From an uncultured Negativibacillus sp. (GTDB taxonomy: Bacteria > Bacillota > Clostridia > Oscillospirales > Ruminococcaceae), in the NCBI RefSeq assembly GCF_944388365.1, contig NZ_CALXIN010000002.1:1-64000 (forward strand): a stretch of 64,000 nucleotides of DNA. The letters run 5' to 3'. The translations under genes and the position numbers were made by a program. Of the stretch, positions 5,348 through 46,004 are shown piece by piece. Below the pieces are notes generated by a model that did no database searches, was not told where the DNA came from, and saw only the letters and a program-made list of their open reading frames with translations. Position 1 is the stretch's first letter. The number at the start of each line of letters is the position of its first letter.

Positions 5348-5544
5348 TCTGTCGAAACATTCCTTTCTGTACATTTTTATCTAGAAAAGATCGATATTAT
5401 AAAAATAATTCACAATAGTAACAAAAAATATCTTCCTTTTTACTTGTTTTTGATTATATCATTTCTCATATAACGAATCAAGATTTACTATAACAACAAT
5501 ATGACAAATCATGATAGAATCTAGTTGTCAAAAGAAATAAAAAA

Positions 5545-5591
5545 ACAATCAATATAAAGCGTATTTTATATATAAGACATATATTGATTGT
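5545..5591 (+). promoter_or_regulatory. Inverted repeat upstream of the ureohydrolase gene
   Basis: ACAATCAATATA at 5545-5556 is perfectly complementary to TATATTGATTGT at 5580-5591, with 23 AT-rich bases between. It ends about 28 bases before the ribosome-binding site. It could be an operator for the divergent LysR protein or an RNA hairpin in the 5' leader. Confidence 0.45.
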
Positions 5592-5631
5592 CTTTAAAAA
5601 CAAAAGATGAGTAAGAAAAAGGAGAATGAAT

Positions 5632-6585
5632 ATGTCTGAAGTTAAACAACCTGCAAGCGCACTGTCCTCCCCAAGATTCTGCAATATGGGAACATTTATG
5701 AGAATGAGCAAAGTTGATTCGGCTGAAGGATTAGATTTCGTTATTGCCGGTGCTCCATTCGATACAGCAAGCTCTTTCCGCTCTGGTTCTCGTTTTGGCC
5801 CAAATGCAATCAGAAATATTTCCGCAATGATGAAACCAAACAATGTTCTTCTTCAGGTAAACATCATGGAAAGCCTCAAAGGCGGCGATATTGGTGACTT
5901 CAATGTAACCCCAGGCTACATTCATCCATCCTATGCAGCAATCGAAGAAGGCGTAAGTCAGATTTTGGAAAAGAATGCAGTTCCGATCGTTCTGGGCGGC
6001 GACCATTCGATTACTCTGGCAGAGCTTCGTGCAGTTGCTAAAAAATATGGTCCTGTAGCTCTGGTACATTTCGATTCTCACTCTGACCTGTGTGATACCG
6101 TATTCGGTGAAAAATATAACCATGGTACACCATTCCGTCGTGCAATCGAAGAAAATCTGATCGATCCATCCCACTCCATCCAGATTGGTATGAGAGGATC
6201 CCTGTACGATCCAAACGAGCACAAGATGGCTGCTGAACTTGGTATGAAGCTTATCCCAGCTCACAAAGTACGCGAAATGGGAACAGACGCGCTGATCCAG
6301 GCAGTTCTGGAAAGAGTTGGGGACAAACCTTGCTTCCTGACCTTCGATATCGACTTTGTAGATCCTGCATACGCCCCAGGTACCGGTACACCAGAGGTTG
6401 GCGGTTTCACCTCCTTTGAAACACTGGATATGGTAAGAAGAATCAAAGACCTCAACTATGTTGGTTTTGATATTGTTGAAGTGCTTCCAGCTTACGATAG
6501 TGGCGAAATCACTGCATACATGGCAGCGAACATTGTATTTGAATATCTTTCTATTCTCGCTTTGAAAAAGAAGAATAACAAGTAA
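5632..6585 (+). CDS. Agmatinase/arginase-family ureohydrolase
   Basis: 317 residues. ATG 5632 is preferred over ATG 5626 because AAGGAG at 5619-5624 is correctly spaced only for the former. Members hydrolyse guanidino compounds to urea and an amine using two Mn or Ni ions. All six metal ligands are present: H125 (GGDHS), D148, H150 and D152 (FDSHSD), and D239 and D241 (DIDFVDP). The length is normal for the SpeB branch. Substrate cannot be read from sequence: agmatine is the default, but guanidinobutyrate, guanidinopropionate and guanidine are all possible in this family. It is followed after 59 bases and a hairpin by a YjiH-type membrane protein, and a divergent LysR gene lies upstream. Confidence 0.85.
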   Translation: MSEVKQPASALSSPRFCNMGTFMRMSKVDSAEGLDFVIAGAPFDTASSFRSGSRFGPNAIRNISAMMKPNNVLLQVNIMESLKGGDIGDFNVTPGYIHPSYAAIEEGVSQILEKNAVPIVLGGDHSITLAELRAVAKKYGPVALVHFDSHSDLCDTVFGEKYNHGTPFRRAIEENLIDPSHSIQIGMRGSLYDPNEHKMAAELGMKLIPAHKVREMGTDALIQAVLERVGDKPCFLTFDIDFVDPAYAPGTGTPEVGGFTSFETLDMVRRIKDLNYVGFDIVEVLPAYDSGEITAYMAANIVFEYLSILALKKKNNK

Positions 6586-6593
6586 AAATTTCG

Positions 6594-6625
6594 GGACCGG
6601 TTGGTGTTCGACCGGTCCTATTTAT
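6594..6625 (+). terminator. Intergenic hairpin (attenuator or terminator)
   Basis: GGACCGGT and ACCGGTCC with a 9-base loop, followed by a T-rich tail. Placed between the ureohydrolase and the membrane protein, it probably lowers downstream expression. Confidence 0.6.
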
Positions 6626-6644
6626 TACATAAGGAGGGTGGATT

Positions 6645-8093
6645 ATGTCAGATAATAAAGTAAATATCAGTGGGGAACAGATTAATTATAATGACAACAA
6701 TGTGTTGGACGCATTGAAGTTAAATCCACAGCAGGAAAAGGCCGGAACAATCAAAAGTATTATCTTTACGATCATTGCAATTATCGTCTTCTTTGTTCCA
6801 GTCACCATCAACGGAAACACAGATATTGTTTTTGGAACAATTTATAAAACGATCAAAAGCGTACTGGGTCTTGTTGGTATCTGGATGATCTGCAGCATCA
6901 TTATTGTAAATGGACCTTTGAGCATTTACAGCAAGTTTATCTGTAAAAACAAAGAGTCAAAACTCTACAAATATTATGAAGATGATTCCATCGTCCATGC
7001 AATTTTCTATCTGCTTGGTTCTGCATTTGCGGTTGTTTATGTTTTAGATCAAACCTTTGCAGCATTCAGTGGTCCGGAATGGCTGGTTGGTGCTCATACC
7101 GGTGGAACTGTTTTCCCGGTTGCGATTGACGTTGCATGGATCATTCCTGTTAGCGCCTTCTTTATGCCTTTCCTTTTAAACTACGGCATTGTAGATCTGA
7201 TTGGAAGTCTGATGGAACCATTGATGCGCCCTGTATTCAAGGTTCCAGGACGCAGTGCGGTCAATGCAATAGCTTCCTTTGTCAGCTCTTCCTCTGTTGG
7301 TGTATTGATTACAAGCAAACTGTATCGAAGCGGTGTGTATACCAAAAAAGAAGCCTGCATTATTGTAACCGGTTTCAGCGCTGTCAGTGTTGGATTTGCG
7401 TACATGGCGATTGAAACAGCCGGATTGGCAGAACATTTTCTGCTGGTTTATTTCCTTGCATTGCTCATTACTCTGATTGTAAGCATCTTTATGGCGAGAA
7501 TCCCGCCTCTGTCTACCAAAGAGTCTGTTTTTATTGACGGAAGAAAACAGACGAAAGAAGATATTCAGAGAGAACGTCATTCTGATGAAGGTGCTCTGAA
7601 AAAGGGTGTTGAGAGAGCGGTCAAAAAAGCATACACTGCTCCAAAGCTGTCCACAGAGATTAAAAACAGCCTGAAAGACGGATATTTTGTCCTTCCAAAG
7701 GTTATTTCCCTGCTTGCAGCTGTCGGTACTGTTGCCATGATCGTAGCAAACTATACACCTGTCTTTAACTGGATTGGTAAAGTGTTTGAACCACTCCTGG
7801 TGCTGCTGCAGGTTCCAAATGCGGCAGAGATCGCACCATCTTTCCCAGTTGGCATTGCAGAGATGTTCCTGCCTGTTATGATGATTGCGGACAAGGTGGA
7901 GATGCTGGCAGCTGGTGCACGCTACATGGTTGTTACTGTTGCTATGGTACAGATCATCTTTTTCTCGGAAACAATCATCGTTATGCTTTCTACCAAAATG
8001 CCGATTTCTTTGAAAGAGCTGATTATCTGCTTTGTAGAAAGAACCTTGATTGCGATTCCGGTAACAGCGGTATTTATGCATATTTTGTTCTAA
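6645..8093 (+). CDS. YjiH-family membrane protein with nucleoside-recognition (Gate) domains
   Basis: 482 residues with about ten hydrophobic segments. An internal charged loop near residues 280-330 separates two Gate-like halves. The pattern (SFVSSSSVGVLITSKLYR, later PVGIAEMFLPVMM) matches the YjiH branch of Gate-domain proteins. YjiH proteins are presumed transporters, but their substrates are not established. A good AGGAGG site precedes the ATG. Linkage to the ureohydrolase suggests uptake or exchange of a guanidino compound or its product; this is inference. A U-tailed hairpin at 8130 ends the unit. Confidence 0.75.
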   Translation: MSDNKVNISGEQINYNDNNVLDALKLNPQQEKAGTIKSIIFTIIAIIVFFVPVTINGNTDIVFGTIYKTIKSVLGLVGIWMICSIIIVNGPLSIYSKFICKNKESKLYKYYEDDSIVHAIFYLLGSAFAVVYVLDQTFAAFSGPEWLVGAHTGGTVFPVAIDVAWIIPVSAFFMPFLLNYGIVDLIGSLMEPLMRPVFKVPGRSAVNAIASFVSSSSVGVLITSKLYRSGVYTKKEACIIVTGFSAVSVGFAYMAIETAGLAEHFLLVYFLALLITLIVSIFMARIPPLSTKESVFIDGRKQTKEDIQRERHSDEGALKKGVERAVKKAYTAPKLSTEIKNSLKDGYFVLPKVISLLAAVGTVAMIVANYTPVFNWIGKVFEPLLVLLQVPNAAEIAPSFPVGIAEMFLPVMMIADKVEMLAAGARYMVVTVAMVQIIFFSETIIVMLSTKMPISLKELIICFVERTLIAIPVTAVFMHILF

Positions 8094-30399: not shown

Positions 30400-31912
30400 A
30401 TGACAAATCCTGTACAGACAAGTACAAGTCAGATTGCGCAGCTGCGCAGCCAGAAAAGCTTCTTTGGTCATCCAAAGGCGATTGGAACACTGAGCTTTAT
30501 GCAGTTGTGCAACTCGTTTGCAAACTACGGCATGAGCGCCATCCTGGTTTACTACCTGTATGCGGCAGCACCGGAAGGCTTTGGCTTCACACAGGAAAAT
30601 GCAGCTCAGCTGGTTTCGCTGTATTCGGCAGTATCCATTTTGACCGGTATCATCGGCAGCTACGTTGCTGACCGTGTGCTTGGTCCAAGAAAAGCACTGG
30701 GTCTGGCAAGAAGTGTTCAGGCTGTTGCATATCTGTGCTTGGCAATTCCATTCTTTGGCGTATACGGCTATGTTGCCAGCCAGGCACTGCTCTGTCTGGG
30801 CACCATGCTCTCCGGCCGAAGCCTGGAAGCACTGACCGGCAAAATGTATGAAAAAGAGGATAAACGCCGCGACGGTGCGTTTGCAATTTCGTATGTTATT
30901 TCCAATATCGGTGCAGCTGCTCCGGCAATCTCCGGTACCGTTGCATTGATGACCGGCTACAATGTTGCATTTGCAATGTGTGCAGTTTTCGCAGTTCTTG
31001 GTGTTGTCAGCTACTATGCAACCGAGAAAAAATTCTTTGGCCCAATCGGTCAGGAACCAGATGACCCACTGTCTCCAGAGAAAAAGAAATCCTTCATGGT
31101 AAAATTTGTGGTTGCTGTGGTAGCAGCTGTTGTTGTAATGGCAGTTCTGTTCACCACCGGTATCCTCACCATCAACGTATTTGCAAACTTCATGAGCACC
31201 GCGGCAATCTTTATTCCGGTCATCTATCTGATCTACATCATCAAGAGCCCTAAGACAGAAAAAGAAGAATCCAAACATGTGCTGTACCTGATCCCAATGT
31301 ACGTATGTAACTGCTTTGCAATGCTGGTATGGACACAGTCCACCTCCATTCTGGCGATCTATGCAGAACAGAGAGTTAACAGAAATCTGTTTGGCTTTGA
31401 AATCACACCAGCAGCGTTCCAGACTCTGCCGGCAGTTCTGGCAATTATCTTTGGTATCATCGTCACCGCACTCTGGACAAAACTTGGCAAAAAAACAGCC
31501 GTCCGCTCCGACCAAAATCGGTATCGGAACCATCTTCTGGGGCTGTGGTCCGCTGTTTATGATTATTCCATTTGTTCTGTATGCAGCAGATGTCAAAGTA
31601 AGTCCAATGTGGCTTGTTATGTTCTATGTTCTGATTATCTTTGGTGAGGCAATCACCAATGCGGTTAGCTATTCCTCCGCTTCTCTGGTTGCACCAAAAG
31701 CATTTACCACCCAGATGATGACCGTATGGAGCATGAGCCAGTCTACCGGTGCTGCACTGAGCACCCTGGCAGTTAACTTCTATCACGAGGGTTCGGAAGC
31801 TACCTACTTCCTGATGATCGGCGGCATCACCTGTCTGATTGGTCTGCTGGTTATGATCTTTGCAAAGAAGATCGAAAAAGGAATGGGTCTTGCTGATAGC
31901 AAGCAGGCATAA
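30400..31912 (+). pseudogene. POT/PTR-family peptide symporter, interrupted by a frameshift
   Basis: Frame one (30400-31494) gives the first 365 residues with POT landmarks (QLCNSFANYGMSAILVYYL, VADRVLGPRKAL, YVISNIGAAAPAISG). After seven A's at 31489-31495 the protein continues in the +1 frame from CAG 31496 to 31912 (QPSAPTKIGIGTIFWG onward). Dropping one A gives a normal ~503-residue, ~14-helix H+/peptide symporter. As written, frame one ends after 50 unrelated residues at 31647. It could be a real mutation, transcriptional slippage on the A7 run, or an assembly error. Both flanks are otherwise intact. Confidence 0.85.
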
Positions 31913-34644: not shown

Positions 34645-35352
34645 CTTTAGCAAAGAACTTTCGCCAATAAGCGAAAGTTCAACAACCGCCCGCTATGCGG
34701 GTGGATTAAGGCTTAAGCAAAGAAACATCCTTTCTGGTAAGATAGAGATTGTTCAAGCCTCTAAAAAACCAGGAAAGGATGTTTCTTATGGCAAATAGTT
34801 TAGCACATACCAAATGGGTATGCAAGTATCACATCGTTTTTACACCAAAGTACCGTCGGAAAATAATCTATAAAGAATTGAGAAAAGATATCCAGCAAAT
34901 CATAAAAGATTTGTGTAAGTGGAAAGGTGTAGAAATTATAGAAGGGCATATGATGCCGGATCATGTGCATATTCTGGTAAGTATACCGCCCAAATACAGT
35001 GTATCCCAATTCATGGGATACCTCAAAGGGAAAAGTGCGATGATGATATTTGAAAGGCATGCAAACCTAAAATACAAGTTTGGGAATAGAAACTTCTGGG
35101 CAACAGGATATTATGTAAGTACAGTAGGAATCAATACTGCGACAATACAAAAATATATCCGAGAGCAAGAAAAGCAAGATCAAATAGAAGATAGTTTAAG
35201 CAAGAAGGAGTATGTAGACCCTTTCAAGGGTAGCAAGTAATCATACCACCAGAGGCTTGAACGAAGTGAAAGCCAGCGTCATTTAGGCGCTGGCTTTTAT
35301 CACGGCCTTATAGGCCGCTCGTCATGCCACCCCTCTTAGGGGTGGTCATGAC
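34645..35352 (+). mobile_element. IS200-type insertion sequence, copy 2
   Basis: It has left hairpins at 34659-34682 and 34686-34704 (CCGCCCG, loop CTATG, CGGGTGG). The right hairpin is at 35327-35345 (CCACCCC, loop TCTTA, GGGGTGG), nested between CATG repeats. A single tnpA and no tnpB. Ends are approximate. It has landed between the peptide operon and the phospho-signalling island. Confidence 0.75.
34788..35240 (+). CDS. tnpA: IS200/IS605-family transposase TnpA
   Basis: 150 residues from ATG 34788, with AGGAAAGG upstream. HUH motif H59-V-H61 and likely nucleophile Y123 in KYIREQ. It is intact, and clearly diverged from the copy at 8302, though both keep the FxGSK C-terminus. Confidence 0.92.
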   Translation: MANSLAHTKWVCKYHIVFTPKYRRKIIYKELRKDIQQIIKDLCKWKGVEIIEGHMMPDHVHILVSIPPKYSVSQFMGYLKGKSAMMIFERHANLKYKFGNRNFWATGYYVSTVGINTATIQKYIREQEKQDQIEDSLSKKEYVDPFKGSK

Positions 35353-35429: not shown

Positions 35430-35438
35430 TGGTATGAT
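35430..35438 (+). promoter_or_regulatory. Extended -10 promoter before the phospho-signalling operon
   Basis: TGG directly followed by TATGAT (TGnTATGAT), 42 bases upstream of the first start. No good -35 hexamer lies at 17 bases, as expected for an extended -10 promoter. Confidence 0.45.
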
Positions 35439-35479
35439 AGGAGTACAGGAATCAACCTACTTTTCAGGAGGTGTCAAAG

Positions 35480-36190
35480 ATGGAGTGGCTTAATTGGGTT
35501 GAACAAGTACTTCGAAAATATGCGCAGTTTGATGGACGCAGCCGCAGAAAAGAATATTGGTATTTCATGCTGTTTTATTATTGCGTGGTCCTTGCCTTTT
35601 CGCTGCTGTCGGTGGTTGTGCTCGGCTTGATTTTGCTGAACATTTTTGTGTTGGCAATGTTTATCCCCTGTCTTGCAGTAACAGTGCGGCGACTGCACGA
35701 TATCGGAAGAAGCGGAGTATGGATGCTGATCGGACTGGTACCGGTTTTGGGATGGGTGCTTCTGGTCATCTGGCTGTGTCAGGAAAGCGAGCCAGGGGAT
35801 AACCGCTATGGTCCCAATCCCCTTGGACAAAAGGCTGCCTATCGTTCACCTGCGCAGAGGCCGGTTGTCAGTCAGGGCACGCTGGCGATCAAGTGTGTGT
35901 CGGGAACACTGCGAGGACATACCTATCGCATTGGCAGCGAGGGAATTGTGTTGGGACGCGCGCCCAACTGTGCTGTCCGCTACGGAGAGGGAGTTCCTGG
36001 CATCAGCAATCAGCACTGCTGTGTACGGCAGGAAAGAGGCGTTCCGGTTTTAATCGACCTCAATTCCCGATATGGAACCTGGTTGGAAAACGGCAAGAAA
36101 CTGCCGCCTAACTATCCAGAGTGTCTGAGTGTTGGAAGCAAGTTTTATCTGGGTTCACCATCCAATATGTGCCAGATTATCTATATGTAA
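35480..36190 (+). CDS. DUF805 membrane domain fused to FHA domain
   Basis: 236 residues from ATG 35480, placed eight bases after AGGAGG; a GTG at 35471 lies inside the ribosome-binding site. Residues about 1-115 are a DUF805 (YhaH-like) four-helix membrane domain (FDGRSRRKEYWYF, RRLHDIGRSG, GDNRYGPNP). Residues about 135-232 are an FHA domain with the key binding residues intact: GR in LGRAPNC, SxxH in SNQHC and NSRYGT. FHA domains bind phosphothreonine, so this should dock a phosphorylated partner at the membrane. It is the first gene of a seven-gene block that includes two kinases and two phosphatases. Confidence 0.88.
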   Translation: MEWLNWVEQVLRKYAQFDGRSRRKEYWYFMLFYYCVVLAFSLLSVVVLGLILLNIFVLAMFIPCLAVTVRRLHDIGRSGVWMLIGLVPVLGWVLLVIWLCQESEPGDNRYGPNPLGQKAAYRSPAQRPVVSQGTLAIKCVSGTLRGHTYRIGSEGIVLGRAPNCAVRYGEGVPGISNQHCCVRQERGVPVLIDLNSRYGTWLENGKKLPPNYPECLSVGSKFYLGSPSNMCQIIYM

Positions 36191-36217
36191 GAGAAAACAA
36201 CAGGGAGGAAATCAATT

Positions 36218-36892
36218 ATGGCAGAAATACAGAAAAAGATTAAAATTTGCCCGAACGGACATCCATACGATCCCAGCCGGTTTGAAAGCTGTCCTATCTG
36301 CAGCAACGGCGGATTTGCACCTACTCTCGACCCATTTTCGGCGGACCCAATGGGTGCAGATTTTGACATGGGAGCACAGAACAATGGTTCGTTTGCACCG
36401 ACAGCACCGCCGGAAGGTGGATATCAAAATCAAGCGTATGCGCCCCAAGGCGGCTACAGCCGATTTGAACCAACCGCTATCCCAGAGGTGCGCTATTCGG
36501 GAAGAATGCAGGAAACGCAGTCGGTTGACCCGTCCACACCGGCCGGAACCTCCTCTCCGGTTGTCGGATGGCTGGTAGCGGTGGATGGTCCCTGCCGCGG
36601 AACCGACTACCGTATCCGCGTAGGATACAATTACATCGGAAGAACCAGCGGCGATATCTGCATCCATGGCGATGCGACCATCTCGGCAGAACGGGATTGC
36701 AGCGTGACCTATGTTCCGCAAACCAGAGGATTCTATATTGCGCATGAATTGGGCAAAAATCCGCTGCTGCTCAACGGCAAGCCGGTCATTCGGGAAGCAG
36801 AGCTGAAGAGCTATGACCGCATCACGATAGGAAGCACCAACCTGATATTCATTGGACTGTCGGGAGAGCAATTTGACTGGAGTGATAATTAA
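36218..36892 (+). CDS. Zinc-ribbon plus FHA domain protein, divergent FHA
   Basis: 224 residues, with AGGGAGG before the ATG. The N-terminus holds a small zinc site (C11, H15, C25, C28). A Pro/Gly/Gln/Tyr-rich linker (about 30-95) with several Thr follows, including FAPT repeats that could be phosphorylated. The C-terminal FHA domain (about 115-215) has the first GR (YIGRTSGD), but SxxH is replaced by SAERD, so classic phosphothreonine binding may be altered. It is soluble and cytosolic. It might be a kinase substrate that is read by the other FHA proteins; inference. Confidence 0.8.
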   Translation: MAEIQKKIKICPNGHPYDPSRFESCPICSNGGFAPTLDPFSADPMGADFDMGAQNNGSFAPTAPPEGGYQNQAYAPQGGYSRFEPTAIPEVRYSGRMQETQSVDPSTPAGTSSPVVGWLVAVDGPCRGTDYRIRVGYNYIGRTSGDICIHGDATISAERDCSVTYVPQTRGFYIAHELGKNPLLLNGKPVIREAELKSYDRITIGSTNLIFIGLSGEQFDWSDN

Positions 36893-36895
36893 ACG

Positions 36896-37867
36896 ATGAA
36901 TTGGATGAATTTCTTTCTTACGGTTGAAACTCCCGAGGCATCTGCTCCCGAACAGAATTTATTGAATCTGGAATTTTCTACGACAGAGATCGTACTCGGC
37001 GTTCTTGTCCTGCTGGCATTGTGTGCGGCGCTGTTTTGGTTTATCCGCAAAAAGCGGCAGCCTCAAAGGACGGGAAAGCTGCATCCGGCTGTCATCCAAC
37101 AGATACGAATTGGCAAGGTTCATGGACAGGGTGCAAGGAGCTATCAGCAGGACAGCTTTGGCGTTTCTGATCCGGAGATGCTCAAAGGAAACGGGCTGCT
37201 GGCGGTGGTTGCCGACGGAATGGGCGGACTTTCGGATGGAGATAAAATCAGTACCGCCGTTGTCGAGACGGTGCTGGATGGATTTACCTATTCACAGGGC
37301 CAGGGCACACCGGAACAGGTGCTGCTGACTTTGACCCAGTGGGCAGTTCGGGAGGTCAATCGCTTTTTGGGACCTGACCACTACCGCAGCAGCGGCTCGA
37401 CCATGGCGATGGGAATGATCCGTGACGGGCGTTTTTCCTGGGTCAGCGTCGGAGACAGCCGCATCTGCCTTTATCGCGGTGGACAACTGATTCAGCTCAA
37501 CCGTGAACATGATCTGAAACAAAAACTGGCCTTGCAGGCAATCAACGGGGAAATTTCGCTGCAGGAGGTTTATACCAATAAACAGAAGGACGGTCTGGTC
37601 TGTTTCATGGGAATGGGAGCGCTCGATCAGGTGGATTTGCCGTCTACTCCGGTGACGCTGATTCCTGGCGACCAGCTGATCATTATGACCGATGGCATCT
37701 ACAATGCGCTGGAAGAATCGGAAATCTGTGCGGCATTGGACAAGGGAGCGGAAGGTGCACCGGCGGAACTGGAACAGGCGATCCAGAAAAAGGCCTATCC
37801 AGATCAGGACAATTATACAGCAGTGATCCTGTCCTGTGAGACACAGCCTGCTTCGACTGGACGTTAA
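36896..37867 (+). CDS. PP2C-type Ser/Thr phosphatase with membrane anchor
   Basis: 323 residues, starting three bases after the previous stop. A short extracellular N-terminus precedes one membrane helix (about 31-50) and a basic stop-transfer (RKKRQ). The PP2C domain (about 70-315) has the metal-site motifs QQDSFG, VADGMGG, GDSR, TDGIYN and DNYTAVIL. The membrane location matches that of the two kinases, whose phosphorylation it probably reverses. Confidence 0.9.
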   Translation: MNWMNFFLTVETPEASAPEQNLLNLEFSTTEIVLGVLVLLALCAALFWFIRKKRQPQRTGKLHPAVIQQIRIGKVHGQGARSYQQDSFGVSDPEMLKGNGLLAVVADGMGGLSDGDKISTAVVETVLDGFTYSQGQGTPEQVLLTLTQWAVREVNRFLGPDHYRSSGSTMAMGMIRDGRFSWVSVGDSRICLYRGGQLIQLNREHDLKQKLALQAINGEISLQEVYTNKQKDGLVCFMGMGALDQVDLPSTPVTLIPGDQLIIMTDGIYNALEESEICAALDKGAEGAPAELEQAIQKKAYPDQDNYTAVILSCETQPASTGR

Positions 37868-37887
37868 GGAGAAAGGAGCCGTACATC

Positions 37888-38601
37888 GTGATGAATACGT
37901 ACAGCTATACAGATATAGGTGGGCGCCCGCACAATGAAGATGCCGTTTGTATCCGGCAGACGGGAGAAAATCAGCTTCTTGCCGTACTTGCCGACGGATT
38001 GGGCGGACATGGCGGCGGAGAAATCGCCTCCGGCATTGCAGTGGAGACGCTCGACAGCGGATGGACTGGGGTTTCCTCACCGGCTGTTTTATACGACCTG
38101 ATTATGCAGGCGCACCGCAAAATCCTGTCTGCCCAAACACCTGTCTGCAGGATGCGCTCCACCATCGTGGCACTGTCGGTGGGAGCAGGTCACGCCGACT
38201 GGGCCTATGCGGGAGATTCGCGCCTGTACCAGTTTTACAACGGTGAGCTGGTGCGGCAGACACGCGATCACAGCGCCTCCCAGGTAGCGGTGATGATGGG
38301 AGAGATCACACAGGACCAGATCCGATTCCATCAGGACAGAAGCCGGCTTTTTCGGGCGCTTGGACAGGATGGCGGCTTGAATGTAGATACCGGAAGCGTG
38401 GATCTGACCCCTGGAAATTATGCCTTTTTGCTATGCAGCGATGGCTTTTGGGAATATGTTTATGAGCAGGAGATGGCATCATCCCTTGCGCAGGCAGCTT
38501 CTCCCAAAGACTGGGTAGAACGGATGCGCAGTCTGCTGCGTCAAAGAGCACCCGAAAACAACGACAATAATACGGCAGCGGCTGTCTGGCTTACCGTATA
38601 G
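37888..38601 (+). CDS. PP2C-type Ser/Thr phosphatase, soluble
   Basis: 237 residues from GTG 37888, or ATG 37891. AGGAG at 37874-37878 suits either. Compact PP2C domain with RPHNEDA, LADGLGGHGGG, GDSRLYQF, CSDGFWEY and NDNNTAA. No membrane segment. Two different phosphatases in one operon suggest separate membrane and cytosolic targets. Confidence 0.9.
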   Translation: MMNTYSYTDIGGRPHNEDAVCIRQTGENQLLAVLADGLGGHGGGEIASGIAVETLDSGWTGVSSPAVLYDLIMQAHRKILSAQTPVCRMRSTIVALSVGAGHADWAYAGDSRLYQFYNGELVRQTRDHSASQVAVMMGEITQDQIRFHQDRSRLFRALGQDGGLNVDTGSVDLTPGNYAFLLCSDGFWEYVYEQEMASSLAQAASPKDWVERMRSLLRQRAPENNDNNTAAAVWLTV

Positions 38602-38612
38602 GAGAGGAGCAG

Positions 38613-39956
38613 ATGAGGAAGATGAAAGGAAAACTCAAGGGGATTATTCTCTTTTTATGTGTGGTACTTTGTGTTTTATGCACTGGATGCCAGCAACAGA
38701 CGGGCAGCGCACTGGATGCCAAAAACGGCGTCGCCCAGGTCATCTGCACCGTGCGGGATGAAAGCGGCAACCTGGTGACAGGCGGTACGGGCAGCGGATT
38801 TTTTGTTGGAGAACAGGGCAAAAATCCAGAATATATGATTACCAATCACCATGTCGTCGAGCTTTATCTGGCTGCCGGTTCCGGTGAATGGGTCACGCTG
38901 GACATTGGTGAAACACAGATGACGGTAAAGGCGTATGTGGATGTCTATTTTGACCGCGATGATTTTGTGCAGGCAAACGTCGTTGATTTTAATGAAACGG
39001 CGGATATTGCCATTCTTCGCCTGAGCCAGCCGACCGATCAGCGCGTGCCGCTCACTCTGACCGAGCCTACCGATGAGATGGTCGGTTCCTCGGTCTACTG
39101 TATTGGCTTCCCTGGGTTGTCGGACAATATGCTGATCGACGCCACCACACAGAGCGGTCTAAACGATATGACCGTCACCAGCGGCACCATCAGCCGGCTT
39201 TTGACCTCGTCCGGATCGGGAGTTCGTCGGATACAGACCGATGCTGTCATCCAGCATGGCAATTCCGGCGGACCGATGGTCAACGAAAGAGGAGAGGTGC
39301 TGGGTGTAAACTCCTGGACGGTCTCCAATTCTGACACCCAGGAAACGAACTACTACGCATGCGATATTTCGGAAGCAGTCCTGCTGTTAAATCAGAACAA
39401 TATCCAGTATATGATGTCGACTGAATCGAACACCAGCGCAGGTTTCTTGCCGGTAGTTGTGATTGTCGCTGTCATTGCTGTCGCGGCAGTAGTGGTCATC
39501 GTGATTGTTGCCAGCAAGAATAAACATCCAAGTCAGCCCGATGCAGTACAGCCGCCAGTGGAACCACAGCCAGCCATTCAGCAGCCGGTGATTCAGCAGC
39601 CGGCCTCCGCTGCTGCGAATCCGAATGATTCCGGCTATCGCCTCCAGTGTACCTCCGGCGCCCTTGCAGGCCAGCGCTTTATGATTCGGCAGGATACACC
39701 GCTTGTGTTGGGACGAAACAGCGATGTATGCAATGTTGTATTCCCGGGCACACCTGGTGTCAGCGGAAAACATTGCTCTGTATGGTATCAGCATGGTAAA
39801 ATATTCTTACAGGATCTGAGTTCCAGCCATGGCACCTATCTTCTGCCAGGAACCCGTCTGCCGTCCAATCAGGCAATCGAGATCAAAGTGGGCGATGGAT
39901 TCTATCTTGGCTCCAGTCAGGAGAGCTTTGTCATCACAGAAAGGCGGGGATCTTAA
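38613..39956 (+). CDS. Extracellular trypsin-like protease - membrane helix - cytoplasmic FHA protein
   Basis: 447 residues. The N-terminal lipoprotein-type signal ends LCTGC (C26). A trypsin-like domain (about 35-265) has the triad H80 (TNHHVV), D131 (TADIAIL) and S218 (GNSGGPM). A membrane helix (about 278-301) and a Pro/Gln linker follow. The FHA domain (about 345-440) has R368 in LGRNSD, S384 and H387 in SGKHC, and SSHGTY. The order implies a protease outside and a phosphothreonine reader inside, on one chain. Whether signal passes inward (a cleavage event sensed) or outward (protease controlled by phosphorylation) cannot be read from sequence. The FHA domain closely resembles that of the DUF805-FHA protein, which suggests duplication. 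Confidence 0.88.
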   Translation: MRKMKGKLKGIILFLCVVLCVLCTGCQQQTGSALDAKNGVAQVICTVRDESGNLVTGGTGSGFFVGEQGKNPEYMITNHHVVELYLAAGSGEWVTLDIGETQMTVKAYVDVYFDRDDFVQANVVDFNETADIAILRLSQPTDQRVPLTLTEPTDEMVGSSVYCIGFPGLSDNMLIDATTQSGLNDMTVTSGTISRLLTSSGSGVRRIQTDAVIQHGNSGGPMVNERGEVLGVNSWTVSNSDTQETNYYACDISEAVLLLNQNNIQYMMSTESNTSAGFLPVVVIVAVIAVAAVVVIVIVASKNKHPSQPDAVQPPVEPQPAIQQPVIQQPASAAANPNDSGYRLQCTSGALAGQRFMIRQDTPLVLGRNSDVCNVVFPGTPGVSGKHCSVWYQHGKIFLQDLSSSHGTYLLPGTRLPSNQAIEIKVGDGFYLGSSQESFVITERRGS

Positions 39957-39958
39957 TC

Positions 39959-41047
39959 ATGGAGAATACGCAGCATACACAGCACACGATCATGGATCCT
40001 TGTCTTCCGGCTGGAACGGTCATCAGTGGACCAAGACATAGTTTTACGCTGGAAAAGGTGCTGGGCAAAGGCGGCTTTGGAATTACCTATCGAGGAAGAG
40101 AAAATTCCTCCGGCAGACCGGTAGCGATCAAGGAATACTTTCCAAACCGCTGTCAGCCTTGCAGAATGCCCAATGGAAGCATTGTTCCTTTGACACAGTA
40201 CCAGCAGGTATATCAAAACGGAAAGAAGAGCTTTTTAAACGAGGCGGCAATGCTGCGGGCATTGGACGATATTCCTTCGGTTGTACGGATACTGGATTTT
40301 TTTCCTGCCAACGAAACAGCCTATATGGTGATGGAATTTTTGGATGGAACCAATCTGCGGCAGATGGTCGAGCGCGGAGGACGGATTCCCGTCCATGTCC
40401 TCCGGTCGCATTTGACGCCGTTGATTCGAGATATTTGCGCGATTCACGAGCGCGGTGTGCTGCATCGTGATATTGCACCGGACAACATCATGTGGATGCC
40501 GGACGGAACGCTCAAACTGATGGATTTTGGCTGTGCCCGTGCGATGGAGGACGGCCGCTCGATGACGGTGCAGTTAAAACCAGGATTTGCACCGACAGAA
40601 CAGTATGGTTCACACGGTCAGGGAGATTATACCGACCTGTATGCACTGTGTGCAACGATTTACTACTGCATTACAGGAATGGTTCCTCCGGCAGCGCCGG
40701 AACGGCAGTTTGCCGTATATGACAATAAGCCGGACCCGTTGGTCTGGCCGCATGACCTGGATGTTCAGGTCAGTCCCGACTGGGAAGCGCTGCTGATGTG
40801 GGGATTACAGCTGAATCCCGAAATGCGTCCGCAAAAGGTGCAGCAGTGGCTGGAACGGGCAGAAGGACTGACCGTCTGGTCAAATACCGAAATGACGGAC
40901 ACCGAGATTGATCCAGATCCTAAACCTAAACCTGAACCAATTCCTCCGCAGCCGGACTTGAAAAAGTCGGTGCTGCACTGGATCGTCATAGGCTTGTGCA
41001 TATTGGCAGCAGTGTCGGCTGTTTTTGGGCTGGCACAGCTGATCTAG
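39959..41047 (+). CDS. Ser/Thr protein kinase, tail-anchored
   Basis: 362 residues, two bases after the previous stop. Kinase domain about 28-305 with the glycine loop GKGGFG (36-41), K58 in AIKEYFP, H169-R-D171 in HRDIAPDN and D189-F-G. The activation-loop region continues LKPGFAPTEQY. A Pro/Lys linker leads to one C-terminal helix (about 338-358), with no extracellular domain. It shares its layout and many residues with the kinase encoded next, so the two are paralogues. Confidence 0.92.
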   Translation: MENTQHTQHTIMDPCLPAGTVISGPRHSFTLEKVLGKGGFGITYRGRENSSGRPVAIKEYFPNRCQPCRMPNGSIVPLTQYQQVYQNGKKSFLNEAAMLRALDDIPSVVRILDFFPANETAYMVMEFLDGTNLRQMVERGGRIPVHVLRSHLTPLIRDICAIHERGVLHRDIAPDNIMWMPDGTLKLMDFGCARAMEDGRSMTVQLKPGFAPTEQYGSHGQGDYTDLYALCATIYYCITGMVPPAAPERQFAVYDNKPDPLVWPHDLDVQVSPDWEALLMWGLQLNPEMRPQKVQQWLERAEGLTVWSNTEMTDTEIDPDPKPKPEPIPPQPDLKKSVLHWIVIGLCILAAVSAVFGLAQLI

Positions 41048-41085
41048 GGTGATGCATAAGCACTGAGAACAAGGAGGTTGCAAAA

Positions 41086-44000
41086 GTGAAGCCAAGTACG
41101 CAATATTGTCCGTATTGCATGACACCCATAAAAGATGGAAAAATATGTCCACGCTGCGGGCTGACTGCGGGGAATTACGTTCCACAGCCCCACCATTTGC
41201 GCCCTGGAACCCTGTTGATGGACCGATACCTGGTAGGACGAGTGCTGGGAGAAGGCGGTTTTGGTATCACCTACATCGGCTGTGACCTGCGGTTGGAGCT
41301 GAAGGTGGCGATCAAGGAATATTATCCGGTGGACAAGGTCAGCCGAAATACCGCTGTTTCCGAGGAATTGGTCAGCTTCAGCGTTGCGCCGGCACGTTCC
41401 GGCTTTGAACGCGGCAAGACCAGATTTCTGCAGGAAGCCAGAACGATGGCAAAGATGGATAAACAGCAGGTGATTGTGGGTGTTCGTGACTTTTTTGAAA
41501 CAAACAACACCGCCTATATTGTCATGGAATATATCGAGGGCACGACCTTTACCGATCTGGTGGCACAGCGCGGCGGCCGGATACCGCCGGATGAGCTGTT
41601 CACACTGATCAAGCCGTTGTTCAGCGCACTGTCCAACCTGCATCGGGCAGGACTGATCCATCGGGACATCTCGCCTGACAATCTGATGCTGGAGGATGGA
41701 GAGGTGCGGCTGATTGATTTTGGCTGTGCAAGGGATGTCGAAAACGGAAATGAGACTCTGACCATCACACTGAAACATGGTTATGCACCGATTGAGCAGT
41801 ATCAGACGGCGGGTGGACAGGGTCCCTGGACCGATGTTTATGCACTTTGTGCGACGATCTATTTCTGTCTGGTCGGACAGAAGCCGCCGCAGGCGCTCAA
41901 CCGCATCGGTTCGGAGAAATCGATGATCCTGCCCAGCAAATTGGGAATTAACCTGTCGCCGCAGCAGGAAGAGGCGATCATGCATGGCCTGAATCTGTCG
42001 CCTAAAAACCGCTATCAAAGCATGGAAGAGCTGCAGGGAGCGCTGTATGCACCGTCTGTCTTGATTCCTGAGCCAGATCCCATCATTACACAGGATGATG
42101 ATTTAACAAAGGATATCTCGCAGGAACAAACATTGGATGGACCAACACCTATGCCGCTGCCTGATCCCAAGAAGGATTTTTGGCGGCGAAGCCTTGCTTT
42201 TGCTCATCGCCATATCCTGTCTATCAGCGCCGGAGCAGCCGTATTGTTGTTGCTGATTCTGGCGGTACAGCTGATTCCTGGGAACACTTCTGTTGAGAAG
42301 GGAAACACCATTGTGCAGTCTGGGCAGTCATCCGCTGATGAGGTGCAGGAAGAGCCCAGCATCAACTGGGAGGAGGCTCATCTGCTGACGGCACAGGAGA
42401 TGACGATGGAAGGCTTGCAGCAGCTGATGGACGATCCGTCGGTGACAGCGTTGGTCCTTCCTTCGGGTGTATCCGGTCAGATTTCCTATCTGACAGACGG
42501 CAGTCTTTTTACCTTGACCAAACCCATGCAGATTCAGACAGGCGCTCAACTGGATGTGGACGTTCTGTGCATCGACAAAGAAGGCTTTATCCAGGTTCAG
42601 GGCAGTCTGGTGCTGGACGACGGCAATCTGCAGATGAAGGGAGAACAGTTGCGGCTCAGTTTTCCGGATGGACTGGATGGACACCTCAGCTGTGCGCGCG
42701 GATTTCTCTGGATGGAAGGCAGCCAGAACCTCAAAGCCGACGATCAGTCAGCGATCAGAAATATCGGCGGTTATTCGCTGGTGTTTAAGGAGGAGATGGA
42801 TAAAGCCAGAGAGGTGACCAGCTTACAGGAATTGATTGCGTGTGTGGACCAGGAGATTCCACAAGGCATCAAAATCACCAAAGACATTACGCTGAACCGA
42901 GAGATTTCCCTTGCTTGTCCGGTTTATATTGCAGAGGGTGTCACCGTTTCTGCTGACTATGTTGAGGGACAGGAGCCGTTCAGTCTGCTACTGTATGCAG
43001 ATACATCGGTTCTGATTAACTACGGAAGCTGTGAGGCAGGCGTCTGGATGGATCAGGGCGCTGCGTTTATCAATTATGGAAGTTTTTCGGGCAGAAAAGA
43101 CAGCGACGTAGGAAACGGCGGTGTCTGGCTGTGTGAAGACAGCTATTCGGTCATCTATAATGAAGGCTACATGCTGCACGGAGATTGTTCGCGTCTCTGG
43201 CAGAATAGCCATCTGCTCAATGCACCGAGCGGAACATTGGATGCGGAAAACTTCTTTTTGTTGAATGCAAGTCTTTCCAACTACGGAACGCTCACAGCAA
43301 TGGGAAAAGGGGAGTCGCTCAATCTGAACACCGGTTCCCGACTCCATAACTTTGGAACCTTGACGGTGAACAGTCAGGCGGAAATGTGTAACAATGGTCT
43401 ATTGTATAACAAAGGAAGTCTGCTGGTGCAATCCGAAGGCAAGCTGTGGAATGAGTATCTGGTTGAAAATGATTTCGGTACCCTTCGGGCAGAAGCGGGA
43501 GCAATACTGTTAGGCCCTCCTGGTTTTATTGATCAACCAGCCAATGGCGGATATATTTCGACCGGCGGAACGGTTGAGCTGCTGTGCAGCGATCCACCGG
43601 TGGTTTATTCGGTTGCCAATGAGCAGCAGGTAACAGAGATTGCCCAAAATGCTTCGGCAGCTGCAACGCAGGAGCAGCTGGACAGCCTGATGAATGAGAT
43701 AGCTGTCGATGCGATTGCGATTTCGGGCAATGTGACCTATACCGGCGAGTGCAAGATCACCAAGGATCTGTACATCACCGGCAATCTGACCGTTACCGAC
43801 GGCAGCCTGGTATCGGTTGCAAGCAAGGTAATTCTTGCGGATGGAGCCAGCCTGACAGCGGACGGCGTTACCCTGCTGGATGGTGCAGCAATGCAGCTGG
43901 ATAGCGGCACCCTGACCGTAGCAGAAGGCGGACAGATTTATCTGGACGGCAGTGTTCTTCAGGGAAGCGGCGACAGCCGCATCCAGGCAGCCGGAACAGA

Positions 44001-44562
44001 GATTCAGCTGAGGAATCATTCGCTGATCGTGCCTGAAGCTGATTGCAGCAGCGAGTTTTTCTCGGCGGACAACAGCCATCTGCACATTGCAGATCAGTCG
44101 GCGGTGCTGATGCCAATGAGCAACAGCATGACGGTGCTTTCGGGCGTAACAATGGAGATTGAGAACGCTCGTCTTTCCGGCGGCGGCAATCTGATGCTGC
44201 GAAGCTGTACGCTGAATATCGGTCAGGGAGGCATCTTTACGGAAGCTGGAAATGATCTTTGTCTGGAAAACAGCACCGTTTCTATTGCAGAGCAGGCAAC
44301 GGTCTTCAGCGATTATTGCAACGTACAGCTGCGAGGTACGACAATCACCAACGACGGATTTTTCGTTGTTGGCGGATGGGATGAGATGAAGTTCGTGCAG
44401 CAGGATAGCGTGATCTACAACAACGGCAAAGCGGAGATCAATCCGCCCCATACGATTACAGGTGAAAGTAAGATCTATAATAAGGGAGCCTTACAAACAA
44501 CTCCTGACCATCCCTTTGACACAAAGTGGATTGAGGGAAATGCGCAGCAGGCTTTGGCTTGA
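41086..44562 (+). CDS. Receptor-type Ser/Thr kinase with zinc ribbon and large extracellular repeat domain
   Basis: 1158 residues from GTG 41086, with AAGGAGG nine bases upstream. An N-terminal zinc ribbon (C8-x2-C11, C21-x2-C24) precedes the kinase domain (about 46-320; GEGGFG 55-60, K77, H192-R-D194, D211-F-G). One membrane helix lies at about 377-398. The remaining ~760 residues are outside. They consist of short repeated Asn/Gly-rich turns (INYGSF, LSNYGTL, LHNFGTL, LYNKGSL) of about 20 residues and a second block of Gly/Asp/Leu strands (GNLTVTDGSL, LTADGVTLLDGA). This pattern suggests a right-handed beta-helix. It is the most likely sensor of the island. The ligand is unknown. Confidence 0.9.
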   Translation: MKPSTQYCPYCMTPIKDGKICPRCGLTAGNYVPQPHHLRPGTLLMDRYLVGRVLGEGGFGITYIGCDLRLELKVAIKEYYPVDKVSRNTAVSEELVSFSVAPARSGFERGKTRFLQEARTMAKMDKQQVIVGVRDFFETNNTAYIVMEYIEGTTFTDLVAQRGGRIPPDELFTLIKPLFSALSNLHRAGLIHRDISPDNLMLEDGEVRLIDFGCARDVENGNETLTITLKHGYAPIEQYQTAGGQGPWTDVYALCATIYFCLVGQKPPQALNRIGSEKSMILPSKLGINLSPQQEEAIMHGLNLSPKNRYQSMEELQGALYAPSVLIPEPDPIITQDDDLTKDISQEQTLDGPTPMPLPDPKKDFWRRSLAFAHRHILSISAGAAVLLLLILAVQLIPGNTSVEKGNTIVQSGQSSADEVQEEPSINWEEAHLLTAQEMTMEGLQQLMDDPSVTALVLPSGVSGQISYLTDGSLFTLTKPMQIQTGAQLDVDVLCIDKEGFIQVQGSLVLDDGNLQMKGEQLRLSFPDGLDGHLSCARGFLWMEGSQNLKADDQSAIRNIGGYSLVFKEEMDKAREVTSLQELIACVDQEIPQGIKITKDITLNREISLACPVYIAEGVTVSADYVEGQEPFSLLLYADTSVLINYGSCEAGVWMDQGAAFINYGSFSGRKDSDVGNGGVWLCEDSYSVIYNEGYMLHGDCSRLWQNSHLLNAPSGTLDAENFFLLNASLSNYGTLTAMGKGESLNLNTGSRLHNFGTLTVNSQAEMCNNGLLYNKGSLLVQSEGKLWNEYLVENDFGTLRAEAGAILLGPPGFIDQPANGGYISTGGTVELLCSDPPVVYSVANEQQVTEIAQNASAAATQEQLDSLMNEIAVDAIAISGNVTYTGECKITKDLYITGNLTVTDGSLVSVASKVILADGASLTADGVTLLDGAAMQLDSGTLTVAEGGQIYLDGSVLQGSGDSRIQAAGTEIQLRNHSLIVPEADCSSEFFSADNSHLHIADQSAVLMPMSNSMTVLSGVTMEIENARLSGGGNLMLRSCTLNIGQGGIFTEAGNDLCLENSTVSIAEQATVFSDYCNVQLRGTTITNDGFFVVGGWDEMKFVQQDSVIYNNGKAEINPPHTITGESKIYNKGALQTTPDHPFDTKWIEGNAQQALA

Positions 44563-44578
44563 TTGCTGATAAAAGATG

Positions 44579-44616
44579 AAAAACAGCCCGTGGAATTTTT
44601 CCACGGGCTGTTTTTT
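44579..44616 (+). terminator. Bidirectional terminator at the end of the phospho-signalling operon
   Basis: AAACAGCCCGTGGAA and TTCCACGGGCTGTTT with a 3-base loop; A-run before, T-run after. It serves the convergent gene too. Confidence 0.9.
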
Positions 44617-44628
44617 ATCTTTTATCAA

Positions 44629-45741
44629 TTACATACCTTCGTACATCAGAGAGATGACCTGTTCGAGCCGTTCGCTCATCGGTTCTTCCTCTCCGGCGGC
44701 GCCGATCGCATACAGAATCAGCCAGTCGGTCACATTTCGCGGGTCGAGCAGTGCCATTCCACAGTCGGACAGCATGGCGTTGAGGGTCCACCAGTGTTCC
44801 TCAACCCGCTCCTGAATCGTCATGTTCTCTACATCATCCTGCGAGAAGTTGTCGGAAACAACCGACAGGTCCTCGGTGATCACATAGAGAAGCAGCAGCA
44901 GCTTTCTGGGAACGTCCACCTTATGACTGCGAATGTTTTTAATCGCGGTGGTGTTGGGCCAGTTCTGTTTGATCAGCCGCTGCACCAGCGAGTAGTTCTG
45001 CCGGTTTTTGCCGGATGGCATACGGAGGGAGAGGTAGGTCTGCATCACCGTTTCCAGCGAGTAATATGGTTCCGAAATATCAATCCATTCCGGCACCGGA
45101 TGGATCAGCAGCGAAAGAAACTTATCAAAATAATAATATGCCCGCAGATGCTGGCAGCCAAATTTATCCAGATTGTTCAGATAGCAGCTGCGCAGCTCCT
45201 CTTTGGAGTTGACCAACAGAAAATTGTTTTGGATTTCTTTGGTCAGATGAGAACTGGTAGCACCGTCAATTTGGTTAAAGCCAGGAGCAGGAGGCAGGCT
45301 GTCAAAAAACTCGCGTGCATCCTGATAAGCATATCCGTTGCGCAAAAACCAGGCATACACCACGTCATGTCCATCCCGATACTGGATGCCATAGTCAGTG
45401 CAGAGGCTCAACAGATAATCCAGCTGGGATTCGCCAAATCCCAGCGCATATCCGATTCGGAAGATGTCCTCTCGATTGGTCGGCAGATTTTTATCCGTCA
45501 GCCAGTTTTTGATTTTTCGGACGACCGACGGAGGGTTAACATCCGGCATTTCTGACAGAAAAAAGTCTGTCAGTCGTACTTGCAGGTCGTCTCCTCCATA
45601 CATCTGATGAAGGACGTCACTGAAGGTGCGGACAGGCAGCTGATTGTCCTGCAGGTATGCAACGGCCATGGCAGGAGACATGTGTCCATATAAAACGCGA
45701 TTATATTCTGCGGCAGAAGTAACGGTAAGCTGTCTGTTCAT
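44629..45741 (-). CDS. Conserved-looking protein of unknown function next to the kinase island
   Basis: 370 residues, with AAGGAAG eight bases before the ATG. Predominantly helical, no signal peptide or membrane helix. Residues about 60-115 (VVRKIKNWLTDKNLPTNRED, then IGYALGFGESQLDYLL) resemble the helix-turn-helix-like front of regulator-type proteins in Clostridia, and about 125-145 reads VVYAWFLRNGYAYQDAREFF. I do not recognise a named family. It is convergent with the kinase operon and shares a terminator with it, so co-function is only a suggestion. It could be an output or regulator of the island. Confidence 0.6.
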   Translation of the reverse strand: MNRQLTVTSAAEYNRVLYGHMSPAMAVAYLQDNQLPVRTFSDVLHQMYGGDDLQVRLTDFFLSEMPDVNPPSVVRKIKNWLTDKNLPTNREDIFRIGYALGFGESQLDYLLSLCTDYGIQYRDGHDVVYAWFLRNGYAYQDAREFFDSLPPAPGFNQIDGATSSHLTKEIQNNFLLVNSKEELRSCYLNNLDKFGCQHLRAYYYFDKFLSLLIHPVPEWIDISEPYYSLETVMQTYLSLRMPSGKNRQNYSLVQRLIKQNWPNTTAIKNIRSHKVDVPRKLLLLLYVITEDLSVVSDNFSQDDVENMTIQERVEEHWWTLNAMLSDCGMALLDPRNVTDWLILYAIGAAGEEEPMSERLEQVISLMYEGM

Positions 45742-46004
45742 CTACTTTCTTCCTTTAAAATATAAAATAATCTCATTATAAGATACTATATTCCAGAAAA
45801 GTTGTCAATATAAGCGATTATGCGGCTGAAGAAATGCAGAGCAAGGCGAGCAGATTGCTGTTATCTACCTTGGATTTTTCGCATGAGAATCGGGATGATG
45901 GTTTTATAAAAGGCTGGTCTTGGTTGGGAAAACTACGGTCACAACAAGGAGAAAAATCAATGGATTTTCCTATAAAAAGAGTGACTTTTTGTAAAGGGAT
46001 GTCC

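Follow-up and report, generated by a model that had tools for sequence, protein, structure and literature searches.

A phosphothreonine signalling island with PpkA-like kinases in an uncultured Negativibacillus: a possible stand-alone counterpart of a secretion switch

Seven adjacent genes of an uncultured Negativibacillus sp., g1 to g7, encode proteins that could write, read and erase phosphothreonine, together with two surface modules. They lie in a stretch of 64,000 nucleotides (the window; contig NZ_CALXIN010000002.1 of assembly GCF_944388365.1, positions 1 to 64,000), where an eighth gene, G8, converges on them. We put at about 0.5 the probability that this island is the counterpart of the PpkA-Fha-PppA threonine phosphorylation switch but stands alone, with no secretion machine attached. 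The computed evidence consists of the gene content, the catalytic motifs, the linkage, which includes G8, the correlated divergence of the genes, the kinship with PpkA and the lack of matches to T6SS and T7SS markers. A preliminary description of this DNA had already placed writer, reader, eraser and two surface modules in one locus, an account upheld by the intact catalytic motifs and the conserved neighbourhood. It had missed the likeness to PpkA, the kinship with T6SS and T7SSe gene sets, and G8 as a candidate output.

Organization of the locus

The seven genes run in the same direction on the forward strand, from 35480 to 44562, with gaps of 27, 3, 20, 11, 2 and 38 bases. Open reading frames and Pfam matches agree with the order of FHA, PP2C and kinase genes given earlier, and with the gaps of 2 to 38 bases. 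From this layout we infer that g1 to g7 form one operon. A candidate extended -10 promoter element, TGGTATGAT (35430-35438, forward strand), which is a consensus match only, stands upstream of g1; in L043, a relative of the same genus, it is kept at the same place as TGATATGAT. The run is terminated by a strong bidirectional hairpin between g7 and G8 (44575-44619, annotated on the forward strand), with a 20-pair stem and a T run on both strands.

The first gene, g1 (35480-36190), encodes a multi-membrane-spanning DUF805 domain (PF05656, 1.2e-31) with a C-terminal FHA domain (PF00498, 5e-10). This identity agrees with the preliminary description, but the start proposed there, GTG at 35471, gives way to ATG 35480 as the most likely one, because an AGGAGG (35466-35471) precedes it. 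g2 (36218-36892) combines a zinc ribbon (CPNGH...CPIC), a threonine-containing linker and an FHA domain that has no Pfam match and was recognized in the family alignment. Two PP2C phosphatases follow: g3 (36896-37867; PF13672, 1.3e-11), with an N-terminal transmembrane segment and the motifs DGMGG, GDSR, TDG and DN all present, and g4 (37888-38601; PF13672, 1.2e-8), soluble and Stp1-like, which scores 144 bits against NF033484, below the equivalog cut-off of 230. On inspection, the PP2C catalytic motifs DGxGG, GDSR and DN are intact. g5 (38613-39956) is predicted to consist of a signal sequence, a trypsin/HtrA-like protease (PF13365, Trypsin_2, 2.1e-26) with intact triad motifs (TNHHVV, DIAIL, GNSGGP), a transmembrane segment and a cytosolic FHA domain (PF00498, 3.5e-12). 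The last two genes encode kinases, g6 (39959-41047; PF00069, 4.2e-34), with a C-terminal transmembrane tail anchor, and g7 (41086-44562; PF00069, 4.9e-31), in which a zinc ribbon, the kinase domain, a transmembrane segment and a 760-residue ectodomain follow one another. The preliminary description had identified g7 as a receptor kinase, correctly, and had overlooked its N-terminal zinc ribbon. Its interval reached to 45741 and so took in G8 (44629-45741, reverse strand), which it left undiscussed. A promoter-like site, TTGACA-17-TATCTT (45780-45808, reverse strand), matches 10 of 12 consensus positions ahead of G8 and is conserved in L043.

Immediately upstream of the island is an IS200-type Y1 transposase gene (34749-35240), followed by a hairpin-rich stretch (35241-35350). 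Elsewhere in the window, a POT/PTR2-type peptide transporter is split between two open reading frames (30400-31647 and 31316-31912) that overlap in different frames, a pattern suggestive of a frameshift or an assembly error.

Kinases, phosphothreonine readers and the receptor ectodomain

The motifs GGFG, AIK, HRD and DFG are intact, on inspection, in both kinases. Among kinases of solved structure, PpkA (5hnv; E 4e-50, 174 bits over 278 residues) is the nearest to g7, with PknB far behind (E 1e-26), and g7 and PpkA have the signatures GGFGI, IKEY, HRDIS and APIEQY in common. Ser/Thr kinases commonly carry the motif HRDxK; in the island kinases whose HRD motif could be read, the lysine position is taken by Ser, Ala, Cys or Thr in 66 of 66. 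The island thus resembles PrkC/PknB-Stp pairs in joining a transmembrane Ser/Thr kinase to a PP2C, but differs from them in its kinases, which have no PASTA match in Pfam and a catalytic loop that reads HRDIS or HRDIA, not HRDVK. Against the model NF033483, g6 and g7 score 119.6 and 138 bits, the cut-off being 450. The genome has a separate PASTA-type kinase, with the motif HRDVK, on another contig (C11), so that the contrast with PASTA loci drawn in the preliminary description holds; its contrast with TerY-type triads likewise stands, there being no vWA match in the eight window proteins. By sequence, g6 and g7 are thus PpkA-like and stand nearer to this T6SS kinase than to the PASTA type.

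In a maximum likelihood tree of 83 kinase domains, the 27 kinases from islands of the type that has G8 form one group (support 82/74; 78% of bootstrap trees), which splits into clade A, with g6 (12 rows, 100/99), and clade B, with g7 (15 rows, 100/99). Since both clades are well supported, the pair of kinases has been maintained across families f1, f7, f14 and f16. Within clade B, the kinase of a family-f1 locus (L047) groups with loci of f7, f14 and f16, away from the other f1 loci, a placement that suggests, without proving, that the island was transferred between families.

In the genome (169 contigs, 95% complete), FHA matches are confined to this island. An alignment of ten g2 homologues displays the N-terminal zinc ribbon, a linker of variable sequence, and the GR and Ser of the FHA phosphothreonine pocket; over 33 nonredundant sequences of the family, GR is kept in 97% and the Ser in 94%, and the column of Thr100 holds Thr in 94%. 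The linker of g2 has threonines at 36, 62, 86 and 100, the first three of them in FxPT motifs. Among the 28 nonredundant adaptor sequences that could be anchored, a threonine stands 13-17 residues ahead of the first FHA core motif in every one, and exactly 14 in 19 of them; the threonine content of the zinc-ribbon-FHA adaptor linkers, 8.6%, is the baseline for this conservation. GarA and OdhI provide an analogy for a phospho-switch at a threonine ahead of an FHA domain. In Agrobacterium tumefaciens, Fha binds a threonine after PpkA has phosphorylated it, in the Fha-TssL interaction (PMC3953482). By analogy with these cases, we propose that Thr100 of g2 is a candidate phospho-switch. In the FHA domains of g1 and g5, inspection finds Tyr and His in place of the canonical Asn, and phosphothreonine binding by these two domains is therefore not certain.

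Fold prediction of the g7 ectodomain (760 residues, pLDDT 76) gave two right-handed parallel beta-helix modules, at ectodomain residues of about 174-445 and 456-760, with Z scores of 15-20 to autotransporter passengers, polysaccharide lyases and tailspikes. The modelled fold suggests contact with a polymer or a surface, but proves no ligand. Because the sequence identity of ectodomains between islands is only 20-25%, different islands may well have different ligands.

Recurrence of the island and its link to G8

The protease-FHA protein was searched for in 100 relatives, and regions of 20 kb were annotated with home-made profiles. When GTDB contigs were searched for exact patterns of the same protein, only distant trypsin relatives came up, so the neighbourhoods are those of the whole-genome search. 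Instead of scattered homologues, this survey found a shared neighbourhood: related genera and further families of the order have the gene set, mostly in conserved order. The complete eight-gene set occurs in L043, L044, L114 and L118, and near-complete sets in L047, L049, L107, L108, L110, L111 and L116 (the protease of the last was missed by the ORF picker and recovered by tblastn). Looser islands without G8, made up of zinc-ribbon-FHA, PP2C, trypsin-TM-FHA, a further PP2C and one to five receptor kinases, were found in L046, L048, L050, L053, L054, L117, L119, L120, L122-L126, L129, L131 and L140, and in other families of the phylum (L188-L190, L193). Within the genus the island is patchy (3 of 6 genomes); the gene on its right flank is found in one genome of the genus only, G002, about 10 kb from that genome's island. 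Zinc-ribbon-FHA matches were obtained in 64 of 397 genomes of the family and in 17 of 398 of the phylum. The pairwise identities of G8 and g2-g7 correlate, with r of 0.79-0.97 and none of 999 permutations as high, a correlation that may come in part from shared species history. Because the set recurs in many genomes and the divergences correlate, the clustering exceeds what chance would give.

Apart from G8, the only recurrent partner among the genes flanking the islands is an FHA-FHA-multi-TM protein, seen in L110 (7420-9756), where it is an FHA-FHA-ABC transporter, and in L121 and L123. It is a possible output of these variants; the genome of the window has none. A second set, FHA, zinc-ribbon-FHA, TM-PP2C and a large PP2C-TM, without trypsin-FHA, also occurs across the phylum (L142, L143, L192, L194-L202). 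In L142 its neighbours are a DnaJ-domain protein and three proteins of 727, 433 and 231 aa that Pfam does not match; proteins of about these lengths are seen again at other loci.

Searches of Pfam, NCBIfam and PADLOC gave no match to G8, a protein of 370 residues. Strong matches to it were found in 9 of 394 genomes of the order, counting this one; the sample of other genomes from the phylum gave none. Among 17 G8 genes compared, 16 have one or more island genes next to them; the remaining one (L113) lies at a contig end, and the rest of the island in that genome (L127), on another contig, is itself cut by a contig end. G8 therefore belongs to the island system, since every homologue not cut by a contig end has an island gene beside it, down to L112, where the g7-type kinase is its sole island neighbour. 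Being convergent, G8 is not co-transcribed with g1-g7 in the window; in L049, L107 and L111 it stands at the head of a run on the same strand. About 20 wider islands are without it, and it therefore cannot be the output of all islands.

The AlphaFold model of G8 is all-helical (pLDDT 82.5). Foldseek against the PDB returned nothing significant (best E 1.9), and when its candidates were compared by VIA-align the top six were phage or SaPI repressors (TP901-1 CI, P22 c2 and Stl among them; Z 4.1-4.8, with the HTHs at the head of the list at 4.4-4.8), all aligned from residues 35-38 of G8 onwards. In hhalign, residues 34-120 scored 19.0 against 17 XRE domains of the same genome, at a probability of 12%, while 12 column-shuffled profiles and 6 profiles of other segments scored at most 11.8; the match lies on the recognition-helix part. 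On the strength of the structural list and the profile comparison, G8 is read, with moderate strength overall and a weak helix-turn-helix call, as a divergent XRE/CI-like HTH domain (about 37-113) together with an uncharacterised helical domain. The sequences upstream of g1 and G8 in the window have no 9-mer in common that could mark a shared operator, and the words shared in the same comparison in L043 are mostly AT-rich.

A switch without a secretion machine?

Among known gene sets, the threonine phosphorylation pathway of the T6SS and the kinase, PP2C and FHA parts of the T7SSe appear to be the nearest. With PpkA/PppA/Fha1 the island has in common a PpkA-family receptor kinase, a PP2C and an FHA reader, but it has two kinases, two phosphatases and three FHA proteins, and adds a protease, G8 and a beta-helix ectodomain. 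A T6SS was rejected for this genome, in which VipB (PF05943) has no match while the control search matches in E. coli. A literature search found no description of the gene set, which is not proof that none exists.

In the pathway that we propose, the beta-helix ectodomain of g7, perhaps with the extracellular protease of g5, would sense a cue from the envelope or the surface. The kinases g7 and g6 would then autophosphorylate and, as the family suggests, phosphorylate linker threonines, Thr100 of g2 first and also those at 36, 62 and 86. The FHA domains of g1, g2 and g5 would dock on the phosphothreonines, in a membrane complex that would couple the state of the kinases to the protease, and the two PP2Cs, g3 at the membrane and soluble g4, would reset the phosphorylation. 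The output, the least certain step, could pass through G8 as a probable DNA-binding regulator, through regulated surface proteolysis, or through both.

The island might instead be the regulatory part of a T7SSe-like system whose ATPase and WXG100 genes lie elsewhere or were lost. Kinases, PP2C phosphatases and FHA proteins are frequent in T7SSc-j clusters (Garrett et al. 2024, PMC11217815). T7SSe sets, like the island, group a membrane kinase, a PP2C and a cytosolic FHA protein, and homologous kinases and zinc-ribbon-FHA proteins occur with them in the same family: L136, with a DUF6382-FHA gene, and L144 and L146, with WXG100, have kinases and an FHA adaptor related to those of the island. The island, in contrast, has neither WXG100 nor DUF6382 and possesses trypsin-FHA, DUF805-FHA and G8. 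In a survey of 22 genomes, WXG100 (TseA, PF06013) had no match in the 95% complete genome of the window, and a T7SS was rejected there for that reason; 13 of 15 other island-bearing genomes were also negative (G640 gave a strong match and G002 two matches under the cut-off), yet 4 of 6 genomes with T7SSe-like sets were positive. DUF6382-FHA (TseJ) found no match among the window proteins, with L136 as positive control, and most kinases of T7SSe-like loci fall in other clades of the tree. We therefore regard this explanation as very improbable. A common origin of T7SS regulators and stand-alone islands would merit study, with L136, L144 and L146 as material.

We give as little credence to an anti-phage or toxin-antitoxin module of the KKP type, two kinases and a phosphatase found in prophages (PMC11341870). 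The island too has two kinases with phosphatases and is patchy in the genus, and its kinase domains score against the PADLOC models PD-T4-6 and mad6; these matches, however, cover the kinase domain and are not distinctive for this family. FHA adaptors, receptors and protease are outside the KKP description, and no prophage association was found: G8 has no relative in the viral collection, and the phage, viral and plasmid records searched gave no close relative of g5 or G8, the one phage trypsin match covering 26%. The idea that surface proteolysis is the main output, with the g5 FHA domain reading the kinase state and gating the trypsin domain while G8 separately regulates expression of the island, is somewhat less remote, although still unlikely; the trypsin domain would then trim envelope proteins or the receptor's own beta-helix. 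Of 33 loci retrieved by way of the FHA adaptor, 22 have a protease-TM-FHA protein, the triad motifs being mostly intact, and the pattern reaches the other phylum families named above (L188-L190, L193). Some copies, however, lack recognisable triad motifs. In L133, an island-like set without a trypsin-FHA gene has a vWA-FHA protein (5417-7168), as if one surface sensor had been exchanged for another. These observations are easier to reconcile with a sensor than with an enzyme that the system cannot do without.

The reading of the island as a stand-alone switch can be extended to a class. More tentatively, and at somewhat less than even odds, we suggest a class of secretion-independent phosphothreonine islands, in which a beta-helix receptor kinase would act on a dedicated HTH regulator, G8, and which would be inherited and transferred as a unit. 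A partner kinase, a transmembrane protease-FHA protein and a phospho-switch FHA adaptor would complete it, and it is conceivable, with similar reserve, that such a class has not been described before. The model predicts a switch at Thr100, G8 operators and gating of the protease.

Switches of the PpkA/Fha/PppA type are known for turning on secretion machines. Should these parts function on their own, with output through a protease and a probable transcription regulator, the secretion machine would be only one of several things that such a switch can drive. Annotation at present reads the parts of the island as unrelated "hypothetical", "FHA" and "kinase" genes. Because the zinc-ribbon-FHA adaptor is found above 100 bits in about 50 of the 397 family genomes sampled, these islands may form a common signalling layer in the family.
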